Source: Lachnospiraceae bacterium | Lineage (GTDB): Bacteria; Bacillota; Clostridia; Lachnospirales; Lachnospiraceae | Reading direction: 5' to 3' | DNA: 64,000 nucleotides | Assembly (NCBI GenBank): GCA_015057555.1 | Contig: SVEC01000011.1 | Location: 1-64,000, forward strand | In this document: in pieces, positions 9,728 to 64,000 of the stretch | Layout of the letters: every line of letters starts with the position of its first letter | Position numbering within the stretch: the stretch's first letter is position 1 | Program-made: the position numbers and the translations under genes | The notes under the pieces: generated by a model | What the model was told of the DNA's origin: nothing | Seen by the model: the letters and a program-made list of their open reading frames with translations, nothing else | Database searches by the model: none

Positions 9728-10629
9728 TACTTAACACATCCGATTAATTCATTAATATCCTCTACATTGTTACGCTTCATATAATCCTCAATACCCTTAA
9801 TTATCTCCACTGTAGCATAAGGATTATGGAAGTTAGCTGTACCAACTGCTACAGCTGATGCTCCAGCCATAATAAACTCCAAAGCATCCTCTGCAGTCAT
9901 AACGCCACCCATTCCGATGATAGGAAGCTTAACTGCATTTGCCACCTGGTATACCATACGAACTGCTATAGGCTTAATGGCAGGTCCTGAAACTCCTGCT
10001 GTCTTGTTAGCAACTGCAAATGTACGTCTATTTACATCTATCTTCATACCTGTAAGGGTATTGATAAGTGAAAGTGCATCTGTACCAGCTGCCTCTGCCG
10101 CCTTAGCCATCTCAGTAATATCAGTAACATTTGGACTAAGCTTCATGATAATAGGCTGCTTAGCCTTAGCCTTAATAGCCTTAGTTATGTCGTAAAGTGC
10201 CTTAGGGTCCTGACCAAAGGCTATACCGCCCTCTTTAACATTAGGACAGGAAACATTAATCTCCATAAGGTCTATATCAGTATCTGCAAGACGCTCAACC
10301 ACCTCTAAATAATCCTCAGTACTCTTACCACATACATTTACAATAATCTTAGTATCCTTAGTCTTAAGAAATGGTATGTCTCTCTCAACAAATGTATCGA
10401 TTCCCGGATTCTGAAGTCCAATGGCATTCATCATTCCACCGTAGGTCTCTGCTATACGTGGAGTTGGGTTACCTGGCCAAGGAATATTAGCCACACCCTT
10501 AGTAGTAACTGCACCAAGAAGGTTAAGGTCTACAAACTCATCGTACTCCATACCTGAGCCAAAGGTTCCTGAAGCTACAGTTATAGGATTCTTTAATTCT
10601 ACACCAGCAATATTTACCTTAGTATTCAT
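9727..10629 (-). CDS. pyrD: Dihydroorotate dehydrogenase B catalytic subunit
   Basis: NPITVASGTFGSG, INVSCPNVKEGG, GMGGVMTAEDALEFIMAGASAVAVGTANF; clustered with pyrK/F/C. Confidence 0.96.
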   Translation of the reverse strand: MNTKVNIAGVELKNPITVASGTFGSGMEYDEFVDLNLLGAVTTKGVANIPWPGNPTPRIAETYGGMMNAIGLQNPGIDTFVERDIPFLKTKDTKIIVNVCGKSTEDYLEVVERLADTDIDLMEINVSCPNVKEGGIAFGQDPKALYDITKAIKAKAKQPIIMKLSPNVTDITEMAKAAEAAGTDALSLINTLTGMKIDVNRRTFAVANKTAGVSGPAIKPIAVRMVYQVANAVKLPIIGMGGVMTAEDALEFIMAGASAVAVGTANFHNPYATVEIIKGIEDYMKRNNVEDINELIGCVK

Positions 10630-11393
10630 TATAGCTCCACCTCCTCAGCGTAAAATACAGGACCATCCTTACATACTCTCTTATTGTTAACATTTGAGTG
10701 GTGGTCAACTTCTTTAGACTTACATACGCAGGCAAGACATGCACCAACGCCACAAGCCATTCTCTCCTCAAGTGAAAGCTGAGCTCTGATACCATTAGAA
10801 AGTGCATACTGCTGGATAGCTCTAAGCATAGGTGTTGGTCCACATGCGTAAATGTGTGTACCCTCTATACCGTACTCCTTAATTGCATCCATAACAGTAC
10901 CCTTAACTCCTATGGCACCATTATCACTTGACTTAAAAACCTGACCATAAGGAGCAAACTCCTCTGATAAAAACTCCTCATCTCTATATCCAAGCACTAT
11001 AGACTTCTCACACTTAAGCTCCTTAGCAAGCTGAAGCATAGGTGGTATACCGATACCTCCACCTATAAGAATAGCCTTGCCATCCTCTAGGTTAAAGCCG
11101 TTACCAAGTGGTCCTAACACATCTATAGTGTGACCTGCTGTAAGCTTTGAAAACTCAGCCGTACCCTTACCTGCAATTCTATATACAAGTCTAAGTGTTC
11201 CAGCCTCTCTGTCTATCTCGCATAAGCTGATAGGTCTAGGAAGAAGCTTGCTTCCATCTGCACTATATAAATCTACAAACTGTCCAGGCTTAGCCTGTAC
11301 TGCAATTTCCTTTGCCTCGATAACCATGGAGTAAATGTCTGTACCAATCATCTCCTGTCTGATTACGTTGGCGGTCATCTTTATCTTACCCAT
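10629..11393 (-). CDS. pyrK: Dihydroorotate dehydrogenase electron transfer subunit
   Basis: LPRPISLCEID, GGGIGIPPMLQLAKEL, C-terminal MACGVGACLACVCK 2Fe-2S motif. Confidence 0.96.
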   Translation of the reverse strand: MGKIKMTANVIRQEMIGTDIYSMVIEAKEIAVQAKPGQFVDLYSADGSKLLPRPISLCEIDREAGTLRLVYRIAGKGTAEFSKLTAGHTIDVLGPLGNGFNLEDGKAILIGGGIGIPPMLQLAKELKCEKSIVLGYRDEEFLSEEFAPYGQVFKSSDNGAIGVKGTVMDAIKEYGIEGTHIYACGPTPMLRAIQQYALSNGIRAQLSLEERMACGVGACLACVCKSKEVDHHSNVNNKRVCKDGPVFYAEEVEL

Positions 11394-11409
11394 AGTGGTT
11401 CCTCGTTTC

Positions 11410-12336
11410 TTACTTATTTGCTAACGCGCTATTTATGTCTTCAATCATATCAATTACAGCCTGTCTACTTGCCTCAGCATATCTCTCCTCACCAAACTCA
11501 GCATATTTCTCCTGCTTGTATGCAGCGATAATACCTCTTGATGAGTTAACGATTGCTCCAAGTCCGTCCTCGTTGAAGTAGTGAACTAAGTCCTCAGCCT
11601 TACCGCCCTGTGCACCGTAGCCTGGCACAAGGATGTAAGTGTTAGGCATAAGCTTACGAAGCACCTTACCCATCTCTGGATATGTAGCACCTACTACACA
11701 GCCTACATTGCTGTACTTGTCGCCCATACACTCATTACCCCACTCAACTACCTTCTCTGCTACAAGCTCATAAAGTGGTCTGCCGTCTACAAGCTGATCC
11801 TGGAACTCACCTGATGAAGGATTTGAAGTCTTAACTAATACGAAGATACCCTTGTTTTCTTCCTTACATACATCTACGAATGGCTTAACGCCATCAGTAC
11901 CAAGATATGGGTTAACAGTTACGAAATCCTCACTGAAGCCTGAGTACTTCTTAGAACCAACCTGAACCTGTCCTAAGTGACCAACTGCATATGCTGTTGA
12001 AGTTGAACCGATATCACCTCTCTTAATATCTCCGATTACAACTAAGCCTTTGCTCTTAGCATACTGGCAGGTTCTTTCAAATGCTATAAGTCCCTCGATA
12101 CCGAACTGCTCATACATAGCTATCTGTGGCTTAACCGCTGGAATCAAATCATAAGTAGCGTCGATAATACCCTTGTTGTACTCCCAGATTGCCTCAGCAG
12201 CACCCTTAAGTGTCTCTCCATACTCTGCAAATGCTTTCTCTTGAATATACTTTGGAATGTAATTCATCATAGGGTCTAAGCCTACTACTATTGGTGCATT
12301 TGTCTCTTGAATCTTCTTAATCAATGTGTTAATCAT
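11410..12336 (-). CDS. pyrF: Orotidine 5'-phosphate decarboxylase
   Basis: VVIGDIKRGDIGSTSTAYA, VGLDPMM, VPGYGAQGG. Confidence 0.96.
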   Translation of the reverse strand: MINTLIKKIQETNAPIVVGLDPMMNYIPKYIQEKAFAEYGETLKGAAEAIWEYNKGIIDATYDLIPAVKPQIAMYEQFGIEGLIAFERTCQYAKSKGLVVIGDIKRGDIGSTSTAYAVGHLGQVQVGSKKYSGFSEDFVTVNPYLGTDGVKPFVDVCKEENKGIFVLVKTSNPSSGEFQDQLVDGRPLYELVAEKVVEWGNECMGDKYSNVGCVVGATYPEMGKVLRKLMPNTYILVPGYGAQGGKAEDLVHYFNEDGLGAIVNSSRGIIAAYKQEKYAEFGEERYAEASRQAVIDMIEDINSALANK

Positions 12337-55631: not shown

Positions 55632-57497
55632 CTACTGATATATCACCTTATCCTTTAAATACTCTATCAACATCTCATCTAGAGCTTTTGGTATAACCGG
55701 CTTTGATATAAAATCGTCGAAGCCCTCCTCTAGGTACATTTCTCGGTTTCCTGCTATTGCATTTGCAGTGAGCATGATAACTGGCGTTCCCACAGCAAGT
55801 CTCTCTTCCTTTATGCGATAAAGGGTCTCTATACCATCCATCTCCGGCATCATATGATCTAAGAAGATAATGTCATAGCGATTATCTCTTAGAAGCTCCA
55901 AGCATTTTGCTCCACTATCAGCATCTGTAACCTGAGCCTCTATATGACTTATCAGCCTAGTAAATACTTTAAGATTCATAAAGTTATCATCTACCACAAG
56001 TATCTTTGCTTCTGGCGCTATGAACCTTATGCTGTCCGCCTCCTTGCCTGCAGATTTTTCTATGCTGTCCTTAAAACTACCTATAGGCTCATTATCCATA
56101 ATCTTTTGCTCTACAATGAAAGAAAACTCACTTCCCTTTTCGTATTCACTTTCAATCTTAAGCTCACTTCCCATAAGCTTAAGAAGAGACTGAACGATGT
56201 TCATACCAAGACCTGAACCCTCCACATTTCTATTTCTGGATAGGTCAAATCTCTTGAATTCACCGTAAATATGCTCTATATCCTCAGGTTTAAAGCCGAT
56301 TCCCGTATCCCTTACTGTATAGTGAAGCAAAGCTGTCCCCCCCTGGATAGTTCCACTTAGAGAAAGTATAACCTTTCCCGTATTAGTATACTTAACTGCA
56401 TTAGTAAGCAGGTTTGTAACTACCTGTCTAATACATTTGTCATCTCCAAAATATTCACTAGGAAGCTTAGGGTCTATATCGAATTCCATAGTCAACCCCT
56501 TGTTAACTGCCCTTAGATTAATCATGTTATATAAATCGTTAAGGAGTGTATCAAGCTTGTATCTAACAGGCGCTAGCTCCATCATACCGGACTCTATCTT
56601 AGATGAGTCAAGGATATCGTTGACTATGTTAAGGAGTACATTTGAAGAATCCTTAACATCGGAAGCGTACTTTCTAATATTCTCCTCTTCGCTTTCCCTT
56701 ATTATCATCTCATTCATACCTATAACAGCGTTGATAGGTGTTCTAATCTCGTGAGACATCCTAGCCAGGAATCTTGTCTTTGCCTGATTGGCTTTATCAG
56801 CCTCCTCCTTAGCCTTTGCCAGCTCGTCAGCAAGCTTAGCACGTTCTATACTCTCACTAACTATGGTAAAAATATTATTGCATATAAACACATAGGCTAT
56901 GTAGATAAGACATCTAGGCAATACAAAGAACAAAAACAGCGTAAGCAGTGGATTCTCATTAACCTGACTCAATGTAAACTGTCCATCCAGCACATAATCC
57001 TGAAGTCTGTCTGTAGTAAGCAATGCCATATTTGCATCGCAAAGACCAACATAATAGCCTAGGTAAACCACCAAAAATGTGCTTATAACAGTCAATACAT
57101 ATACATAATTCAGCACTCTCTTAGATGAATAAATGGATGCATATAGAAATGGCAACAAGGATATCAGCACAGCGTGATAGGTCAGAGATACACCTATAAT
57201 GGCAAATATAATCACTATATTAAATAATATATAGTACTTAGTACTTTCATTAACCAAGGTCAGCTTCTTCAGCACTAAAAGCATACTTATATATATCACC
57301 AAGCATATCACATATCCACTAATCATGACATTTTGATTAACTGTAAATATACCTAGTAAATTAAGTATAAGTACAATTGTATAAATATACATAGTTATAG
57401 CAAAGCTCTTAATAACATACTTGTTAGCTATGTATTCCTTATCGTTGATGTATTCATTTATATCAGGATTTTCCTTTATCTTCGGCACTTTTATCAT
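55632..57497 (-). CDS. Hybrid sensor histidine kinase/response regulator
   Basis: HisKA FLARMSHEIRTPINAVIGM, HATPase DTGIGFKPEDIEHIYGEF, REC DIIFLDHMMPEMDG; multi-TM N-terminus. Confidence 0.96.
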   Translation of the reverse strand: MIKVPKIKENPDINEYINDKEYIANKYVIKSFAITMYIYTIVLILNLLGIFTVNQNVMISGYVICLVIYISMLLVLKKLTLVNESTKYYILFNIVIIFAIIGVSLTYHAVLISLLPFLYASIYSSKRVLNYVYVLTVISTFLVVYLGYYVGLCDANMALLTTDRLQDYVLDGQFTLSQVNENPLLTLFLFFVLPRCLIYIAYVFICNNIFTIVSESIERAKLADELAKAKEEADKANQAKTRFLARMSHEIRTPINAVIGMNEMIIRESEEENIRKYASDVKDSSNVLLNIVNDILDSSKIESGMMELAPVRYKLDTLLNDLYNMINLRAVNKGLTMEFDIDPKLPSEYFGDDKCIRQVVTNLLTNAVKYTNTGKVILSLSGTIQGGTALLHYTVRDTGIGFKPEDIEHIYGEFKRFDLSRNRNVEGSGLGMNIVQSLLKLMGSELKIESEYEKGSEFSFIVEQKIMDNEPIGSFKDSIEKSAGKEADSIRFIAPEAKILVVDDNFMNLKVFTRLISHIEAQVTDADSGAKCLELLRDNRYDIIFLDHMMPEMDGIETLYRIKEERLAVGTPVIMLTANAIAGNREMYLEEGFDDFISKPVIPKALDEMLIEYLKDKVIYQ

Positions 57498-57691: not shown

Positions 57692-57701
57692 GTTTCATGC
57701 A

Positions 57702-57785
57702 TGCGGGAGATGGGACTTGAACCCACACGACGTTACCATCACTAGATCCTTAGTCTAGCCTGTCTGCCAATTCCAGCACTCCCGC
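57702..57785 (-). tRNA. tRNA-Leu, anticodon AAG (57749-57751), CCA not encoded
   Basis: GCGGGAG/CTCCCGC acceptor, CTAGA-CTAAGGA-TCTAG anticodon arm, long variable arm, GTTCAAGTC T-loop. Confidence 0.92.
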
Positions 57786-57900
57786 ATTTGTATTGAGTTG
57801 TTCTCAACGCAAGTAATATAATACCAAATTGTAGTTGGGTTGTCAACCATTTATTTTTAAAATCAATACTTTTTCTCTAAATTTCTATAACCACAGCAAA

Positions 57901-58266
57901 CTATCCCAACCGAATTTCATTACTAGGCGTACCTATAACTATTCTAGTACCTGGTTGTAAAATTTTACTTTCACCCTTGGCTATTTCCTCCCCATCAGCT
58001 ATTACATCACCATCAGAAAGGTTACATACAACATAATTCTTATCCACCTGCACATACTTTATGGAACAATGTTTTGCCTCAACGTTATCAGAATCGATAA
58101 CAACCTCAGACTCACTAGAGTCCCTTCCTACAACATATTCTACTTCTCCATCCATGCGAATAATTCTACCTAATAATGCACCTTTGACACCAACTATAGC
58201 ACCTGTCTCCTTGCCATTCATAGCAAGACTTTTTGTCACTCTAACTTCCCTTTTAAATAATGCCAT
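57901..58266 (-). CDS. Small FHA-domain protein
   Basis: EYVVGRDSSESEVVIDSDNVEAKHCSIKY; start MALFKRE behind GGAGG. Confidence 0.75.
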   Translation of the reverse strand: MALFKREVRVTKSLAMNGKETGAIVGVKGALLGRIIRMDGEVEYVVGRDSSESEVVIDSDNVEAKHCSIKYVQVDKNYVVCNLSDGDVIADGEEIAKGESKILQPGTRIVIGTPSNEIRLG

Positions 58267-58286: not shown

Positions 58287-58958
58287 CTATAACTTTGAAG
58301 CATACTTTCTACTTACTGGCAAAACTAAATCTCCTATATACACCGATGTTTTAGTATACTTTGTTACTGCATTTTCTTTAACCATATAACTTTGATGTAT
58401 TCGCATAAAGCCCTTATTATCAAGCATTTCTTCCATCTCCGAAAGCTTGCCATAAAAACTGACAACATCATTCTTGAGGTGAAGCAATAGCTTTCTAGCA
58501 TCACTTTCAATATATAATATTCTAGAAATTGGAATTCTCTTAACCGCTCCTTCAGAGGTAATATTAAGATACTCCTCCGCAGTTGAAATTTCTTTCATAT
58601 ATCTAAGTGTTATGTCTGGCAGCTTACTATCCATAGAATCCTTTAAAATGTATGCAAATGCCTTATACAAATACCCTTCATATACATGTTCAACTGAATT
58701 GGTTACAAAAATTATATCCACATCCACATCATTTCCTCTTATGTATTCAGCAACCTTCATACCGTCAACTGGATCCATAAAAATATCTAAATATAATAAT
58801 TCACATTTAAATGTACCTTTTTCGATATCCCAAATTATATCTTTACCATTGGTGTAGCTAACAATACTAATATCCTCAACATCAAAAAGCGTATTAGATA
58901 TAATATTTCTAAGCCTAGATAAATCTTTATTATTATCATCACATATTCCTATGTACAC
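58287..58958 (-). CDS. LytTR family response regulator (canonical receiver)
   Basis: ICDDN, LLYLDIFMDPVDG; LytTR RILYIESDARKLLLHL...FMRIHQSYMV. Confidence 0.92.
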   Translation of the reverse strand: MYIGICDDNNKDLSRLRNIISNTLFDVEDISIVSYTNGKDIIWDIEKGTFKCELLYLDIFMDPVDGMKVAEYIRGNDVDVDIIFVTNSVEHVYEGYLYKAFAYILKDSMDSKLPDITLRYMKEISTAEEYLNITSEGAVKRIPISRILYIESDARKLLLHLKNDVVSFYGKLSEMEEMLDNKGFMRIHQSYMVKENAVTKYTKTSVYIGDLVLPVSRKYASKL

Positions 58959-58987
58959 TATCCCGTCTCCTCTGTATATTATATAAT

Positions 58988-59028
58988 AAAAGATGGTATA
59001 ACCATACGTTAGAATTATACCATCTTTT
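58988..59028 (-). terminator. Rho-independent terminator
   Basis: AAAAGATGGTATAA/TTATACCATCTTTT stem; flanks 59036 CDS 3' end. Confidence 0.8.
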
Positions 59029-59035
59029 TCACATA

Positions 59036-59761
59036 TTAACCACTATCTTTTTCCCAAAAATTATAATATGCTTCTTTAGTTGTCTTTAAAAATGTTCTTC
59101 CCACTGGGAACTTCTTACTTATCCCCTTATGGGATAACTCTATGGTGCCCTTTCCCAGATATGTAATATATTTTAGATTTAAAACAGAGCCCCCATTGAC
59201 TTGTACCATAGTATCAGTGAGCTTTTTCCTAATCTCCTTAATAGATTCATAACAGTAATAATATCCATTTGTTGTCGCTATCAAAATACGTCTTCCGTCT
59301 CTCTCAATATATATTATTTCGTCTTTATTAATGTACTTTCTATTACCTGAACTTTTTATTTCAAGAACATCCTTGTGTAATGTATAAGACAACGATTGTA
59401 TTGCCTTATCTAACGCTTTATCCATCTTGTTGATAACGTACTCTCTTGGCAGAAGATAAATATGTTTTGTATCATATACATCGTCAATGTAATTATTATC
59501 TGTTATATATATGACCTGACATCTCGGAAATTTCGAATTAATACTTTTAATCAAATCTATTCCCTTATTATAGTCATTACCATATAATCCAATGCTAAAA
59601 ATAATAATATCACTATCAAAAAAACCTTCTTCTACATCTAAAAGAAGTTCTTGTATATTGTAGCAATGTATTTTTACACCTACTAGCTCATTTCTAGAAC
59701 TATTCCTTATAGCTTGTTTTACAGTATTCTCGTTACCACATACACCTATTTTCATATACAA
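59036..59761 (-). CDS. LytTR regulator with degenerate receiver (Ser at phosphoacceptor position)
   Basis: VCGNEN, DIIIFSIGLYG; LytTR EIIYIERDGRRILIAT...MVQVNGGSVLNLKYI. Confidence 0.85.
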   Translation of the reverse strand: MYMKIGVCGNENTVKQAIRNSSRNELVGVKIHCYNIQELLLDVEEGFFDSDIIIFSIGLYGNDYNKGIDLIKSINSKFPRCQVIYITDNNYIDDVYDTKHIYLLPREYVINKMDKALDKAIQSLSYTLHKDVLEIKSSGNRKYINKDEIIYIERDGRRILIATTNGYYYCYESIKEIRKKLTDTMVQVNGGSVLNLKYITYLGKGTIELSHKGISKKFPVGRTFLKTTKEAYYNFWEKDSG

Positions 59762-59893
59762 TCACCTTTAACCAATAATCTCTTTCTATGATTGCATAAT
59801 AATACTTATGGATAACAAATTACGGAAAATGTAATTTTTGCATAAATTATTGTAAAAATTAACACACAATATACAAATTATTATTCACAGTTT

Positions 59894-60604
59894 TTACTCT
59901 TCTTCAAAAAATCTTATGTATTTATTCATGAAATCATTACAAAACCGCTTTCCTATAGGAATACTACTACCATCTTTTAAATGCACCTCGCCCGGTTCCA
60001 TACTAGCAACATACATCAAGTTAACAATATATCCACCATGGCATCTAACAAAACTTTCCATCAAACGTTCCTCTACCTTACGAAGAGAACTATAGCAAGG
60101 ATAATCTCTCCTCAATGTATGAATGTTAAGCAATCTATCATTACGTTCCAAATAAACTATCTCACTTTGAGATATAAACACCTTATGACCATTGCTTAAA
60201 AAATCTATAATATTATTCTCTGTTTTATTCTTATAGACTTCTGCACCTTTTTTGACAGCCTTTACTATCATTTCTTCAGTACTGTCCTTTAACAAATAAT
60301 AGCAATGTTTAGTTTCATACACTAAGCTTGCATAAGTATATTCATTTGTTAGATATATAATCTGACAGGCTGGCATCTTTTCATTTATCATTCCTGCTAG
60401 TTTAATACCATCGTATGATTTATCCATAAAGTTTATCTCTGTAATAAATATATCACACTTAAATAAATCTTCTTCGACAGCTACATATACATCCTCTGGT
60501 GTTTTGATTCTAATTTCGCATTTTTTATCTATAATATGTCGTCTTAGAATATCTTGAATCCTCTCTGACTCTTCAATGTTATCATCACAAATAACAATAA
60601 TCAT
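59894..60604 (-). CDS. LytTR regulator with Glu at receiver phosphoacceptor position
   Basis: ICDDN, CDIFITEINFMDKSYDG; LytTR EIVYLERNDRLLNIHT...FVRCHGGYIVNLMYV. Confidence 0.88.
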   Translation of the reverse strand: MIIVICDDNIEESERIQDILRRHIIDKKCEIRIKTPEDVYVAVEEDLFKCDIFITEINFMDKSYDGIKLAGMINEKMPACQIIYLTNEYTYASLVYETKHCYYLLKDSTEEMIVKAVKKGAEVYKNKTENNIIDFLSNGHKVFISQSEIVYLERNDRLLNIHTLRRDYPCYSSLRKVEERLMESFVRCHGGYIVNLMYVASMEPGEVHLKDGSSIPIGKRFCNDFMNKYIRFFEEE

Positions 60605-60727
60605 CCTAAACCCTCCACAAACAAAATGTCGAATCTTTTCTCATATTTCGACGCTATATTATATTACAACAAAAAATATGCTATTTTTTTAATATTGCAT
60701 TTTATGCACTTTTTTTTGCATAAAAAA

Positions 60728-60755
60728 ATCCACCATCTTTTCTAGGATGGCGGAT
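60728..60755 (-). terminator. Terminator downstream of FHA-ChW gene
   Basis: ATCCACCATC/GATGGCGGAT stem with T7 on minus strand. Confidence 0.78.
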
Positions 60756-60780: not shown

Positions 60781-62601
60781 TTAATTACCAATGATTTTTT
60801 CTATATTTTCCCTTGTAAAACTGTGCTGCGTAACAGAAATAACATTATTAGGATTTATAAAAGAGAATATTTTATCTCCCTCTGCCTGTGTGACTTCTCT
60901 TATCAATACAAAATCACTTCCTGGAAAGCCGTTAATTTGCATATTAGTACCATCACTGGTATAATTTATAGGATAATAACACTCCTTGTATGTTCCAGTT
61001 GGGTCATTAGCATCATTCATAATCCCTAAATCATATAGATAAGACGCTCTGATACCAACAAAGCTAAATGGACCTTCACCAATCCCTATCATTCCGTTAT
61101 TATAGAAAGTAAACATTCCTGGAATATCAAATTTGTTATCTCCACTTATTTCAACAACCTCTCCATACTTCGAATCATATTCATAGATTCTATATCCTTG
61201 ATCAAAATCATCATCTGTTCCATCTGGCTTTATAAACTTGTCTTCATAGTATATTAACATTTCATTTTTACCGTTATTATCCATATCTGCAATGATATAA
61301 AACCAAACATACTGTCTACAATTCTCAGATTCCCTAAAGCTCATCTTGTGATTAAGGTAAATTCCACCATCAACTCTTCCACTGGCATTTGACTCAATAT
61401 CAGACAAAAACTTATAATAGGCGTATTCTTCTTCACTGATGACTCTCTCAACATACGGCTCATCATATACTGTAGTTACATTACAATAATCGTCTGCCGG
61501 AATTTCACCCTTCTCAACCAATGCAAGTTGTATGCTCTCAATGCTCTTTGAATAATTAACCGTTCCAGCCGGACTACCATTACAGCACCATGCCATCCAT
61601 CCATATGACTGCACATGAACCCTATAGTATATGTCAAACTTATCAGCCAATTCACCAGTTAATGATATACACACAGCTTCAACTCTCTTAGCCTGCTCTG
61701 TGGTTCCGCTTGTTTCGCCGTTCTTCTTCCATGTCGATATATCACTAGGTTTACCCTGCCATCCACTGCCTTGAACATAGGTTATGTAATTTATTTCTCC
61801 TTCGTAAGATGATTCTGTAAGCCTGATATCCAATGCCTCAAGACGCTTAGACTCTCCTACCGTTCCTGATATTTCTCCATTCTTACACCAGTTTTTCCAT
61901 CCATAGGATTGAACATATGCTCTATATTCTAACTCTGGTGGTATTAACTCCTCAGTGGTAACCTCTGTAGTTTTCTCTTCAGTTGTCTTAATCTCTGTGG
62001 TTGTTTCTGTTTTTTTATCTGCAATCTGATTTGAATCATTATTAGATTTCTTATCATTACCTATAGTTTTTACAGCAAATACAACGCCTAATATTAATAG
62101 TATGGTTGCGACTATAGATACACCAATCTTTAATCCCAAAGATTTCTTAGATTTCTTTTGTTTACCACTGTCTGGCCTTTTCAATTCCCAAGGTTGACCA
62201 AAATCTGGTATCATTTCCTCCATATTCTCACTATACATAACAGTGTTTACATCGTCCGGAATGACTTGATTATCAACAACATCCATCCTACTAACGCCAC
62301 TTATATCTATCCTAACACCCTCTGCTTCATTACCTGGTGAAAATATGGTTATCACATCTCCGACACCTATTGGACTTTGTGCTACCTTCTTATTATTTAG
62401 ATATATACCAAAGGTACTCTCCATATCCTGTACATACCACTGCTTACCATCATAGTAAAAGCATCCATGTACTCGCGATACAAATTCCTTGTCGATACGA
62501 ATATCACATTCTGGATGACGACCAAAACTAATAATTTCCTTGCCAAACATGGTCAAATCTAATTGTCTACTACTATCTTTTTCATAAATTGTTATTTTCA
62601 T
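60781..62601 (-). CDS. FHA domain - TM - ChW repeat protein
   Basis: N-term ISFGRHPECDIRIDKEFVSRVHGCFYYDG; TM LKIGVSIVATILLILGVVFAV; three ChW-type units (VQSYGWKNWCKNGEISGTVGESKRLEALDIRL etc.). Confidence 0.85.
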   Translation of the reverse strand: MKITIYEKDSSRQLDLTMFGKEIISFGRHPECDIRIDKEFVSRVHGCFYYDGKQWYVQDMESTFGIYLNNKKVAQSPIGVGDVITIFSPGNEAEGVRIDISGVSRMDVVDNQVIPDDVNTVMYSENMEEMIPDFGQPWELKRPDSGKQKKSKKSLGLKIGVSIVATILLILGVVFAVKTIGNDKKSNNDSNQIADKKTETTTEIKTTEEKTTEVTTEELIPPELEYRAYVQSYGWKNWCKNGEISGTVGESKRLEALDIRLTESSYEGEINYITYVQGSGWQGKPSDISTWKKNGETSGTTEQAKRVEAVCISLTGELADKFDIYYRVHVQSYGWMAWCCNGSPAGTVNYSKSIESIQLALVEKGEIPADDYCNVTTVYDEPYVERVISEEEYAYYKFLSDIESNASGRVDGGIYLNHKMSFRESENCRQYVWFYIIADMDNNGKNEMLIYYEDKFIKPDGTDDDFDQGYRIYEYDSKYGEVVEISGDNKFDIPGMFTFYNNGMIGIGEGPFSFVGIRASYLYDLGIMNDANDPTGTYKECYYPINYTSDGTNMQINGFPGSDFVLIREVTQAEGDKIFSFINPNNVISVTQHSFTRENIEKIIGN

Positions 62602-62603
62602 AA

Positions 62604-64000
62604 CTACTTCTCCTTAAAGTTGAAGTTATTATCTTCTGCATATTCCTCAGCTAAGGAACCTTTGGAACCTATTATTGTACAGTTCTTGGATTTCTTATTT
62701 TCTCCATCAATAATACTATATCCTATAGCTTTTTCACTTAGAAATTCCAAGCTATCTGGCAATTCTACAGTAAGGTCATCATTTCCTCCAAATGCATAGA
62801 GATCAATTCTTTTAACCCCCTCCGGTATTATCACATTTTCTAAGCTATGACATGCGTTAAATGCTTCAATTCCAATTATTTCAACGCTACATGGTATACT
62901 TATTGAGGTTAACTTGCCACATCCATAAAATGCCTCATCATAAATATACTTAACACCTTCTGGTATTTTAACTTTCTCCACATACTCACAATTTATTTCA
63001 CCGATACCTATAACACTATATCCACCTAGTGTCTCTGGTATTATAATCTCAGTCTGTGGACCATCATAATCCGAAATTGTAGCTGTTTCATTATCATAAA
63101 CAACGATATCCCAAGCACCATATGTACCATACTTTTCATCAGATTCATAAAATGATTCCAACTCATCTATCTTGTCTATATTTTTATAAACTGCATAATC
63201 CTCAACGTCATCTCTATTCTTATCAGCTATTACCTCAACATCAAATTCATATAGTTTGACATCAAGCACCTCTGCATCGAACTCAAAAATTTCTTTATAC
63301 TCTGTCTCAGTTAAAGTAGTCATTTCATCCCACTCATCTATCCATACATAGTACGCTAGGTTACCACTGTAGTCTTCCTCGCACTCCACGCAAATAGCTC
63401 CATCGTAGGAATTATATGTTTCTCCTCTAGCTCCATCTAAAGGAAGAAGCCCAATATCCTCTAAATATCCATCATGAACACCTGCGTAGTATACCTCGTT
63501 ATCAAATTCGTAACTGCTCATCTTTACTACGCCATTATCATAGAAAGTAAATGGATATTCATCACTTCCCATCTCATATCCACTTTCAAACTTTACCTCA
63601 CCATCTACATACTCATAGAATTCAGCTTCAGAATCTTTAGAAAAACCATAATCGATATCTTTTAATATGAATAGCTCATCCTTCTTGTCACCATCAAAAT
63701 CTGCAATGGCATAAAAATTATAATATATAGTTTCTTCCTTATTTACAGATACTATATTAACCTCTGATGCATCATCCGCATCCTCAACTAATTCAGCTAA
63801 GTACTTATAATAAGCCTTCTCCTCCTTGGACATCCAGTTAATATTAACTAATATCGCAACTACTGCAATTAATGCAGCTGCTGCTACAACACCGATTATT
63901 ATATTACGCTTTTTGTTACTCTTCCTTGGCTCATCAGATAATGCAGCGTTTTCTGTATTCACATCATTTCCATCAGTTACATTAACTGGCTGAATCTGCT
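62604..64000 (-). CDS. TM protein with C-terminal BspA-like leucine-rich repeats; partial, open through window end
   Basis: TM NIIIGVVAAAALIAVVAILVNI; LRR VKIPEGVKYIYDEAFYGCGKLTSISIPCSVEIIGIEAFNACHSLENVIIPEGVKRI; frame reads QIQPVNVTDGND upstream of the listed GTG with no stop. Confidence 0.82.
   Translation of the reverse strand, partial: QIQPVNVTDGNDVNTENAALSDEPRKSNKKRNIIIGVVAAAALIAVVAILVNINWMSKEEKAYYKYLAELVEDADDASEVNIVSVNKEETIYYNFYAIADFDGDKKDELFILKDIDYGFSKDSEAEFYEYVDGEVKFESGYEMGSDEYPFTFYDNGVVKMSSYEFDNEVYYAGVHDGYLEDIGLLPLDGARGETYNSYDGAICVECEEDYSGNLAYYVWIDEWDEMTTLTETEYKEIFEFDAEVLDVKLYEFDVEVIADKNRDDVEDYAVYKNIDKIDELESFYESDEKYGTYGAWDIVVYDNETATISDYDGPQTEIIIPETLGGYSVIGIGEINCEYVEKVKIPEGVKYIYDEAFYGCGKLTSISIPCSVEIIGIEAFNACHSLENVIIPEGVKRIDLYAFGGNDDLTVELPDSLEFLSEKAIGYSIIDGENKKSKNCTIIGSKGSLAEEYAEDNNFNFKEK

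Follow-up and report, generated by a model that had tools for sequence, protein, structure and literature searches.

Two LytTR regulators with pseudo-receivers that probably regulate themselves and a neighbouring Ser/Thr-kinase operon in a Lachnospiraceae bacterium

We investigated three adjacent LytTR-type regulator genes in the window, a 64,000-nucleotide stretch of DNA from a Lachnospiraceae bacterium (positions 1 to 64,000 of contig SVEC01000011.1), and found that they differ in ancestry and lie at the end of an operon of Ser/Thr kinases, phosphatases and FHA proteins. We call the regulators E, S and D after the residue (Glu, Ser or Asp) at the phosphoacceptor position of their receivers. 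E and S carry pseudo-receivers, seem no longer to be under histidine-kinase control, and probably govern their own genes and the neighbouring operon; D alone would still be able to take a phosphoryl group. Of the explanations considered, this is the best, and we hold it as a whole with moderate confidence.

Receiver residues of the three regulators

The E, S and D open reading frames are all intact and lie on the minus strand, with transcription running from E through S and D to a gene for a protein with only an FHA domain (Table 1). For S, the listed frame starts at a TTG at 59761 (to 59036) and encodes 241 residues; the ATG at 59755, giving 239 residues, is the likelier start. LytTR domains scored above the Pfam cut-off of 22.6 bits in all three proteins (D, 63.8; S, 47.7; E, 67.3 bits). 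The Pfam receiver model matched D at 39 bits, matched E weakly (25.6 bits, below the cut-off) and gave no match in S. The receiver assignment of S comes from an AlphaFold2 model, in which a receiver and a LytTR domain are confidently predicted (mean pLDDT 91), and from Foldseek, whose best match to this model was full-length ComE (4cbv, E 1e-12). With a LytTR domain and an N-terminal receiver fold, D, E and S all class as AgrA/ComE-type LytTR response regulators. E and S, which keep a receiver fold and lack the acceptor Asp or other catalytic residues, are in addition pseudo-receivers; D is not.

The acceptor codons read GAT in D (Asp58), GAG in E (Glu56) and AGC in S (residue 56 from the TTG, 54 from the ATG), and an alignment of five receiver positions gave DD-D-T-K for D, DD-E-T-K for E and GN-S-T-R for S. 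The initial annotation had placed Asp, Ser and Glu at one receiver position and had read the acidic pocket as CDD in D and E and CGN in S, and both the codons and the alignment bear this out; a Lys-to-Arg replacement in S had escaped it. Because AGC and GAT differ by two base changes, a single base-call error is no explanation for the Ser. Judged from these residues, ordinary phosphorylation is ruled out for S, as is phosphorylation on Asp for E. The three proteins are 21-29% identical in pairwise comparison. Their own genome encodes 12 LytTR domains, 3 of them in short frames too small for a receiver, and among its 9 receiver-LytTR proteins only E and S, which adjoin each other, lack the Asp. 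Pseudo-receivers make up ~4-13% of receivers, and Glu is the commonest replacement in Asp-less ones (PMC12632262).

Table 1. Positions of the regulators, candidate DNA elements and neighbouring genes.
Feature	Position	Strand	Description
Hybrid histidine kinase	55632-57497		HisKA-HATPase-REC; beyond tRNA-Leu
tRNA-Leu (AAG)	57701-57786		Between FHA-only gene and hybrid kinase
FHA-only partner of D	57901-58266	minus	ATG 58266 behind AGGAGG, same start in G005
D regulator	58287-58958	minus	223 aa; GTG start, same in G005; canonical receiver and LytTR; Asp58 codon 58785-58787
Stem-loop with T-run	58989-59027	minus	AAAGATGGTATAA...TTATACCATCTTT, between S and D; read from sequence
S regulator	59036-59755	minus	Pseudo-receiver and LytTR; Gly-Asn pocket, Ser codon 59594-59596, Lys to Arg
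S-box (putative)	59828-59855	minus	TTACAATAATTTATGCAAAAATTACATT; TTACA-N16-TTACA, 21-bp period, upstream of S
E regulator	59894-60604	minus	236 aa; receiver and LytTR; Glu56 codon 60437-60439; DD, Thr, Lys pocket intact
E-box (putative)	60693-60721	minus	ATGCAAAA-N13-ATGCAATA direct repeat, 21-bp period, third TGCA between
Intrinsic-terminator-like hairpin	60728-60755	minus	Ends kinase/FHA operon before E
FHA-ChW protein	60781-62601	minus	Last operon gene
FHA-LRR_5 protein	62604-63998	minus	Cut by window edge; 592 aa in contig (62604-64382)
Kinase/PP2C/FHA operon	C4:60781-89360 (G000; L060, L187)	one direction, 89360 to 60781	20 closely spaced genes, 28.6 kb

Ancestry, histidine-kinase neighbours and conservation

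The three genes had been described as paralogues. In a tree of 56 proteins, computed with the acceptor and pocket columns masked, they fell into three separate lineages, and we therefore rejected a tandem triplication of one regulator. E and its ortholog in a related genome (G005) form the sister group (100/100) of five regulators that have Asp and lie next to GHKL histidine kinases, a set that includes a paralogue in the window's own genome (at C10). S nests in a seven-row clade composed entirely of orphans, with no histidine-kinase neighbour (98/95), whose acceptors are E, S, G, N, N, D and S. As this position drifts among E, S, G, N and D, the idea that the acceptor Ser is a new target of a Ser/Thr kinase found no support. 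D falls in a ten-row clade (98/98) from islands of Ser/Thr kinases, PP2C phosphatases and FHA proteins.

We then compared the chromosomal locus among relatives. In G010, G013 and G015, one Asp-bearing LytTR regulator, the E ortholog, and GHKL histidine-kinase genes occupy the site before a tRNA-Leu, a hybrid kinase and an NaPi transporter, and in the window and G005 the same locus is occupied by E, S, D and the FHA-only gene. On the explanation that we favour, the GHKL kinases would have been lost here and the resident E would have become an Asp-less receiver with Glu, which probably forms an active-like dimer without phosphorylation. E had been described as phosphomimetic-looking, and that description is supported: DD, Thr and Lys are kept, Glu is present in both species, and the same configuration is activating in engineered ComE, where D58E dimerises and binds DNA with a Kd of 21 nM versus 371 nM (PMC6010298). 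By this analogy the Glu is plausibly a phosphomimic, a type of role that has been disproved in some pseudo-receivers (PMC12632262). S would have come from a clade already freed of histidine-kinase control, found mostly in kinase/FHA islands, and, its pocket being dead, may act through its amount and DNA binding alone.

The statement that the cluster holds no dedicated histidine kinase was correct: we found no GHKL or HisKA gene inside it, and no histidine kinase gene adjoins a regulator as in a two-component system. The nearest is the hybrid kinase to which the initial annotation had pointed, and which does lie past the tRNA. However, in G005, G010, G013 and G015 the same series of tRNA-Leu(AAG), hybrid kinase and NaPi transporter comes next, whatever precedes it, and we rejected this kinase as a dedicated partner because it is fixed chromosomal context, present also beside GHKL kinases. 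The regulators could still be ordinary orphans, with D and perhaps the others taking phosphate from a histidine kinase that is distant or, like this one, hybrid, and with only a positional link to the Ser/Thr kinases. Typical receivers are found in most orphan regulators (PMC12632262), and D, which had been judged phosphorylatable, indeed has the full DD-D-T-K set, kept across most of its clade without an adjacent histidine kinase. We nevertheless consider this unlikely, given the residues of E and S, the fixed context of the hybrid kinase, and the surroundings of the D-clade loci above ~140 bits: all have an adjacent or fused FHA domain and nearby Ser/Thr kinases, except the terminal copies in the window and G005, for which the island kinases lie farther off in the same stretch.

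Asp was retained in 25 of 25 GHKL-linked receivers versus 15 of 31 orphans (Fisher 1e-5, the rows not being independent), the remaining 16 orphan receivers having lost it. Nine Asp losses were reconstructed on the tree, all on orphan branches, which make up 44% of its length (P 6e-4); an independent-pairs test, which is underpowered, gave 3-4 of 4 pairs (p at least 0.125). The orphan state alone does not dictate loss, since one orphan (L190) has a canonical full receiver with its Asp, and Asp persists in most of the D clade, whose members have no histidine kinase next to them. Using a relaxed kinase profile, which also matches ~400-aa relatives that have no Pfam ATPase domain, we found no match at the Asp-less orphans L047, L058 and L059 or at the Asp-bearing orphan L190; L061 had one only at a distance of 8 kb.

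Two further observations concern the E lineage. In its GHKL operons (L050:7886-9127, 9965-11260, 11274-11930; L192:7076-9047), a ~220-aa protein with a clear GHKL ATPase domain stands beside one or two ~400-aa relatives with no Pfam ATPase domain, a possible pairing of true and degenerate kinases. An orphan E-lineage regulator with Glu (G008; L058:9685-12484) has as neighbours two proteins containing RHS repeats and DUF5648 domains.

A search of the proteins of 37 genomes of the genus and of 397 genomes sampled across the family identified one orthologous cluster, that of G005 (its contig is also present as Lachnospiraceae bacterium SIG302), in which E is 76%, S 59% and D 79% identical to the window proteins. 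No relative of S above 35% identity was found outside the genus in the 397 family genomes, and a peptide-pattern scan of genome contigs for S gave no match. Conservation of the Asp/Ser/Glu pattern in orthologous clusters, a check that the initial annotation had called for, failed: the acceptors in G005 are Glu in E and Asp in both S and D, the 397 family genomes held no further cluster, and we rejected a conserved triad. The Glu of E is encoded by GAG in both species. The S ortholog combines its Asp with the same dead CGN pocket and Arg, so the Ser of the window looks like drift after pocket loss. The two clusters agree in the class to which each regulator belongs, namely a canonical D, an E with Glu in an otherwise intact pocket, and an S with a dead pocket, and not in the Ser itself.

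All four open reading frames (E, S, D and FHA) are intact in both genomes, and comparison of the two indicated purifying selection on each (dN/dS 0.05-0.14, about 0.08 for S, with dS saturated); the S receiver is the fastest-changing part, at 52% identity. S had been called inert. This holds for ordinary phosphorylation and goes too far otherwise, given the purifying selection, the good predicted fold and a conserved box at both S and the operon.

Candidate DNA sites, the kinase operon and the FHA partner of D

LytTR sites are 9-bp direct repeats with spacers of 11-13 bp, 12 bp in a known site (PMC2714321, PMC6193735). The putative E-box is the only perfect match to its pattern in its own genome and is kept in G005, and 0 of 1000 shuffles were as good. 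Matches with one mismatch lie on either side of the GHKL-linked paralogue at C10, and repeats of this type, also with a 21-bp period, precede the regulators of G010, G013 and G015. The putative S-box has a second perfect copy in its own genome at C4:89587-89614, outside the window and upstream of the kinase operon. Scanned against the 37 genomes of the genus, its 28-base pattern matched perfectly at five sites, which are confined to the two S-bearing genomes. Each of these has one site upstream of S and another 230-254 bp ahead of the operon's leading PP2C gene; the fifth precedes a ChW gene in G005 and had not been used in making the pattern. The reversed pattern, as a control, gave 0 matches in the same 37 genomes. 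In both genomes the operon promoter also contains a three-part E-box, 111-127 bp ahead of the gene (0 of 2000 shuffles), whose pattern was drawn partly after seeing these sites. For the two-repeat E core in this promoter, 402 and 143 of 1000 shuffles did as well, so that it is not significant, and no D-box was recognised upstream of D.

The pairing of E and S with their boxes is suggested by adjacency and by co-occurrence in two related genomes. LytTR-type repeats upstream of E and of S suggest that each is autoregulated, and, since repeats of the same kinds stand in the promoter of the kinase operon, E and S would also set the operon's expression; we infer their binding to the boxes, and the direction of regulation, from sequence. 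The stem-loop between S and D, ~30 bases before the D start codon and kept in G005 with its T-tract, could be a terminator or attenuator between S and the D-FHA pair.

The three regulators might instead, as the initial annotation suggested, form a graded, cooperating set in which D is phosphorylatable, E constitutively on and S off, perhaps forming heterodimers at shared sites. The residue classes fit such a set, engineered D58E activates ComE, and an adjacent LytTR pair with opposite effects at the same repeats exists (the activator PlnC and the repressor PlnD). However, the E-box is of the ATGCA type and the S-box of the TTACA type, which argues against shared sites and heterodimers, the Ser is not kept (Asp in G005), and the three proteins come from separate lineages; we regard such a set as improbable.

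The kinase operon, like the FHA partner of D, was absent from the initial annotation; it lies mostly beyond the window and reaches in at 60781-64000. It begins with genes for a PP2C phosphatase, an FHA protein, three Ser/Thr kinases (one with PASTA repeats by Pfam), a D-type LytTR regulator, an FHA protein and a CHAP protein, and continues with FHA, VWA-FHA, kinase-FHA, PP2C, FHA, FHA-ABC transporter, more FHA, FHA-LRR and FHA-ChW proteins. Its FHA proteins number about ten, the FHA-ABC transporter among them, alongside two PP2C phosphatases and several Ser/Thr kinases. A terminator-like hairpin closes the operon ahead of E, and G005 likewise has a hairpin with a T-run. We rejected a reading of the operon as a defence system, as the PADLOC matches are those that any protein kinase or ABC ATPase would give.

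The FHA gene next to D begins at its ATG as in G005, and an apparent overlap with the D frame through a GTG was a start-codon artefact. D-clade regulators stand directly 5' of an FHA-only gene in islands of six genomes (G000, G005, G017, G019, G020 and G076), in G374 and in seven more records from a collection scan (L262, L263, L265-L269), and are fused to FHA in one protein in G025, G002, G321 and L264. Ser/Thr kinases are close by at each such locus, and pairing or fusion of LytTR with FHA in Ser/Thr-kinase islands amounts to about 20 loci. In FHA partners inside the islands, and in the G025 and G002 fusions, the phosphothreonine site is complete, with its Arg, Ser and Asn. In the window FHA the binding Ser and Asn are replaced (VEAKH, SDGDVIA), so that it lacks the full set of a Ser/Thr-kinase FHA partner, and the G005 copy has lost the Arg too. 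D and its partner thus appear to be a copy of the operon-internal LytTR-FHA pair in which the FHA domain has decayed, and D or its FHA protein may be in contact with the Ser/Thr kinases. Single proteins that combine a receiver, a LytTR domain and a C-terminal FHA domain occur at L044:8431-9567, L045:9741-10805, L182:9524-10570 and L264:8385-9509, two of the four with a Glu acceptor.

That the cluster consists of degenerating leftovers, with receivers decaying under selection relaxed by kinase loss and no organised role, would account for the acceptor and pocket losses, the FHA beside D without phosphothreonine-binding residues in both genomes and the fast-changing S receiver, but is very unlikely in view of four intact frames under purifying selection, an identical Glu in both E proteins, boxes that are kept (S-boxes being tied to S) and a confidently predicted S fold.

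Relation to known systems and meaning

The individual parts are already known: LytTR regulators, pseudo-receivers, crosstalk between a Ser/Thr kinase and a LytTR regulator, and direct-repeat autoregulation. Neither their combination nor the LytTR-FHA pairing was found in the literature searched, no paper of which mentioned both LytTR and forkhead-associated domains. ComE of Streptococcus pneumoniae shares the receiver-LytTR fold and is the best structural match of S; extracts of the ComE study describe activation by the Asp-to-Glu change at the acceptor and control by the Ser/Thr kinase StkP at Thr128, and mention neither a partner FHA protein nor a kinase operon beside comE (PMC6010298). LytTR Regulatory Systems (HdrRM, BrsRM) likewise have no histidine kinase and are autoregulated through direct repeats with 11-13 bp spacers, but pair with a membrane protein (PMC6193735); here E and S keep a receiver fold and we found no co-transcribed membrane partner, the cluster neighbours being regulators and an FHA-only protein. 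PlnC and PlnD of Lactobacillus plantarum are neighbouring autoregulated LytTR regulators with 9-bp repeats and a 12-bp spacer (PMC2714321), but are 59% identical, co-transcribed and share common repeats, whereas E, S and D are far more divergent, with separate upstream boxes and acceptor losses. ComE differs further in having an Asp and a cognate histidine kinase, and the Glu that was engineered there is natural in E. RitR, which is of the OmpR/PhoB rather than the LytTR type, stands alone, whereas the pseudo-receiver genes E and S lie beside that of a canonical LytTR regulator and a kinase/FHA operon. RitR resembles E and S in being an orphan regulator without the acceptor Asp, and it is linked to a Ser/Thr kinase (a reference in PMC4395418).

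How bacterial pseudo-receivers work is an open question (PMC12632262). The related genomes form a natural series, from kinase present and Asp kept to kinase gone and Asp lost, with one locus where the switch happened in place, its 'before' and 'after' in the same genus, together with candidate DNA sites. Pairing and fusion of LytTR with FHA in Ser/Thr-kinase islands suggest a route from Ser/Thr phosphorylation to transcription. We raise tentatively, as a possibility that we do not expect to hold in full, that certain LytTR regulators of Lachnospiraceae and related clostridia have, as a class, exchanged histidine-kinase control for control by Ser/Thr kinases. In the D clade this would run through a paired or fused FHA protein reading the phosphorylation of threonine, whereas members of the E and S clades, as pseudo-receivers, would set the expression of the kinase operon.
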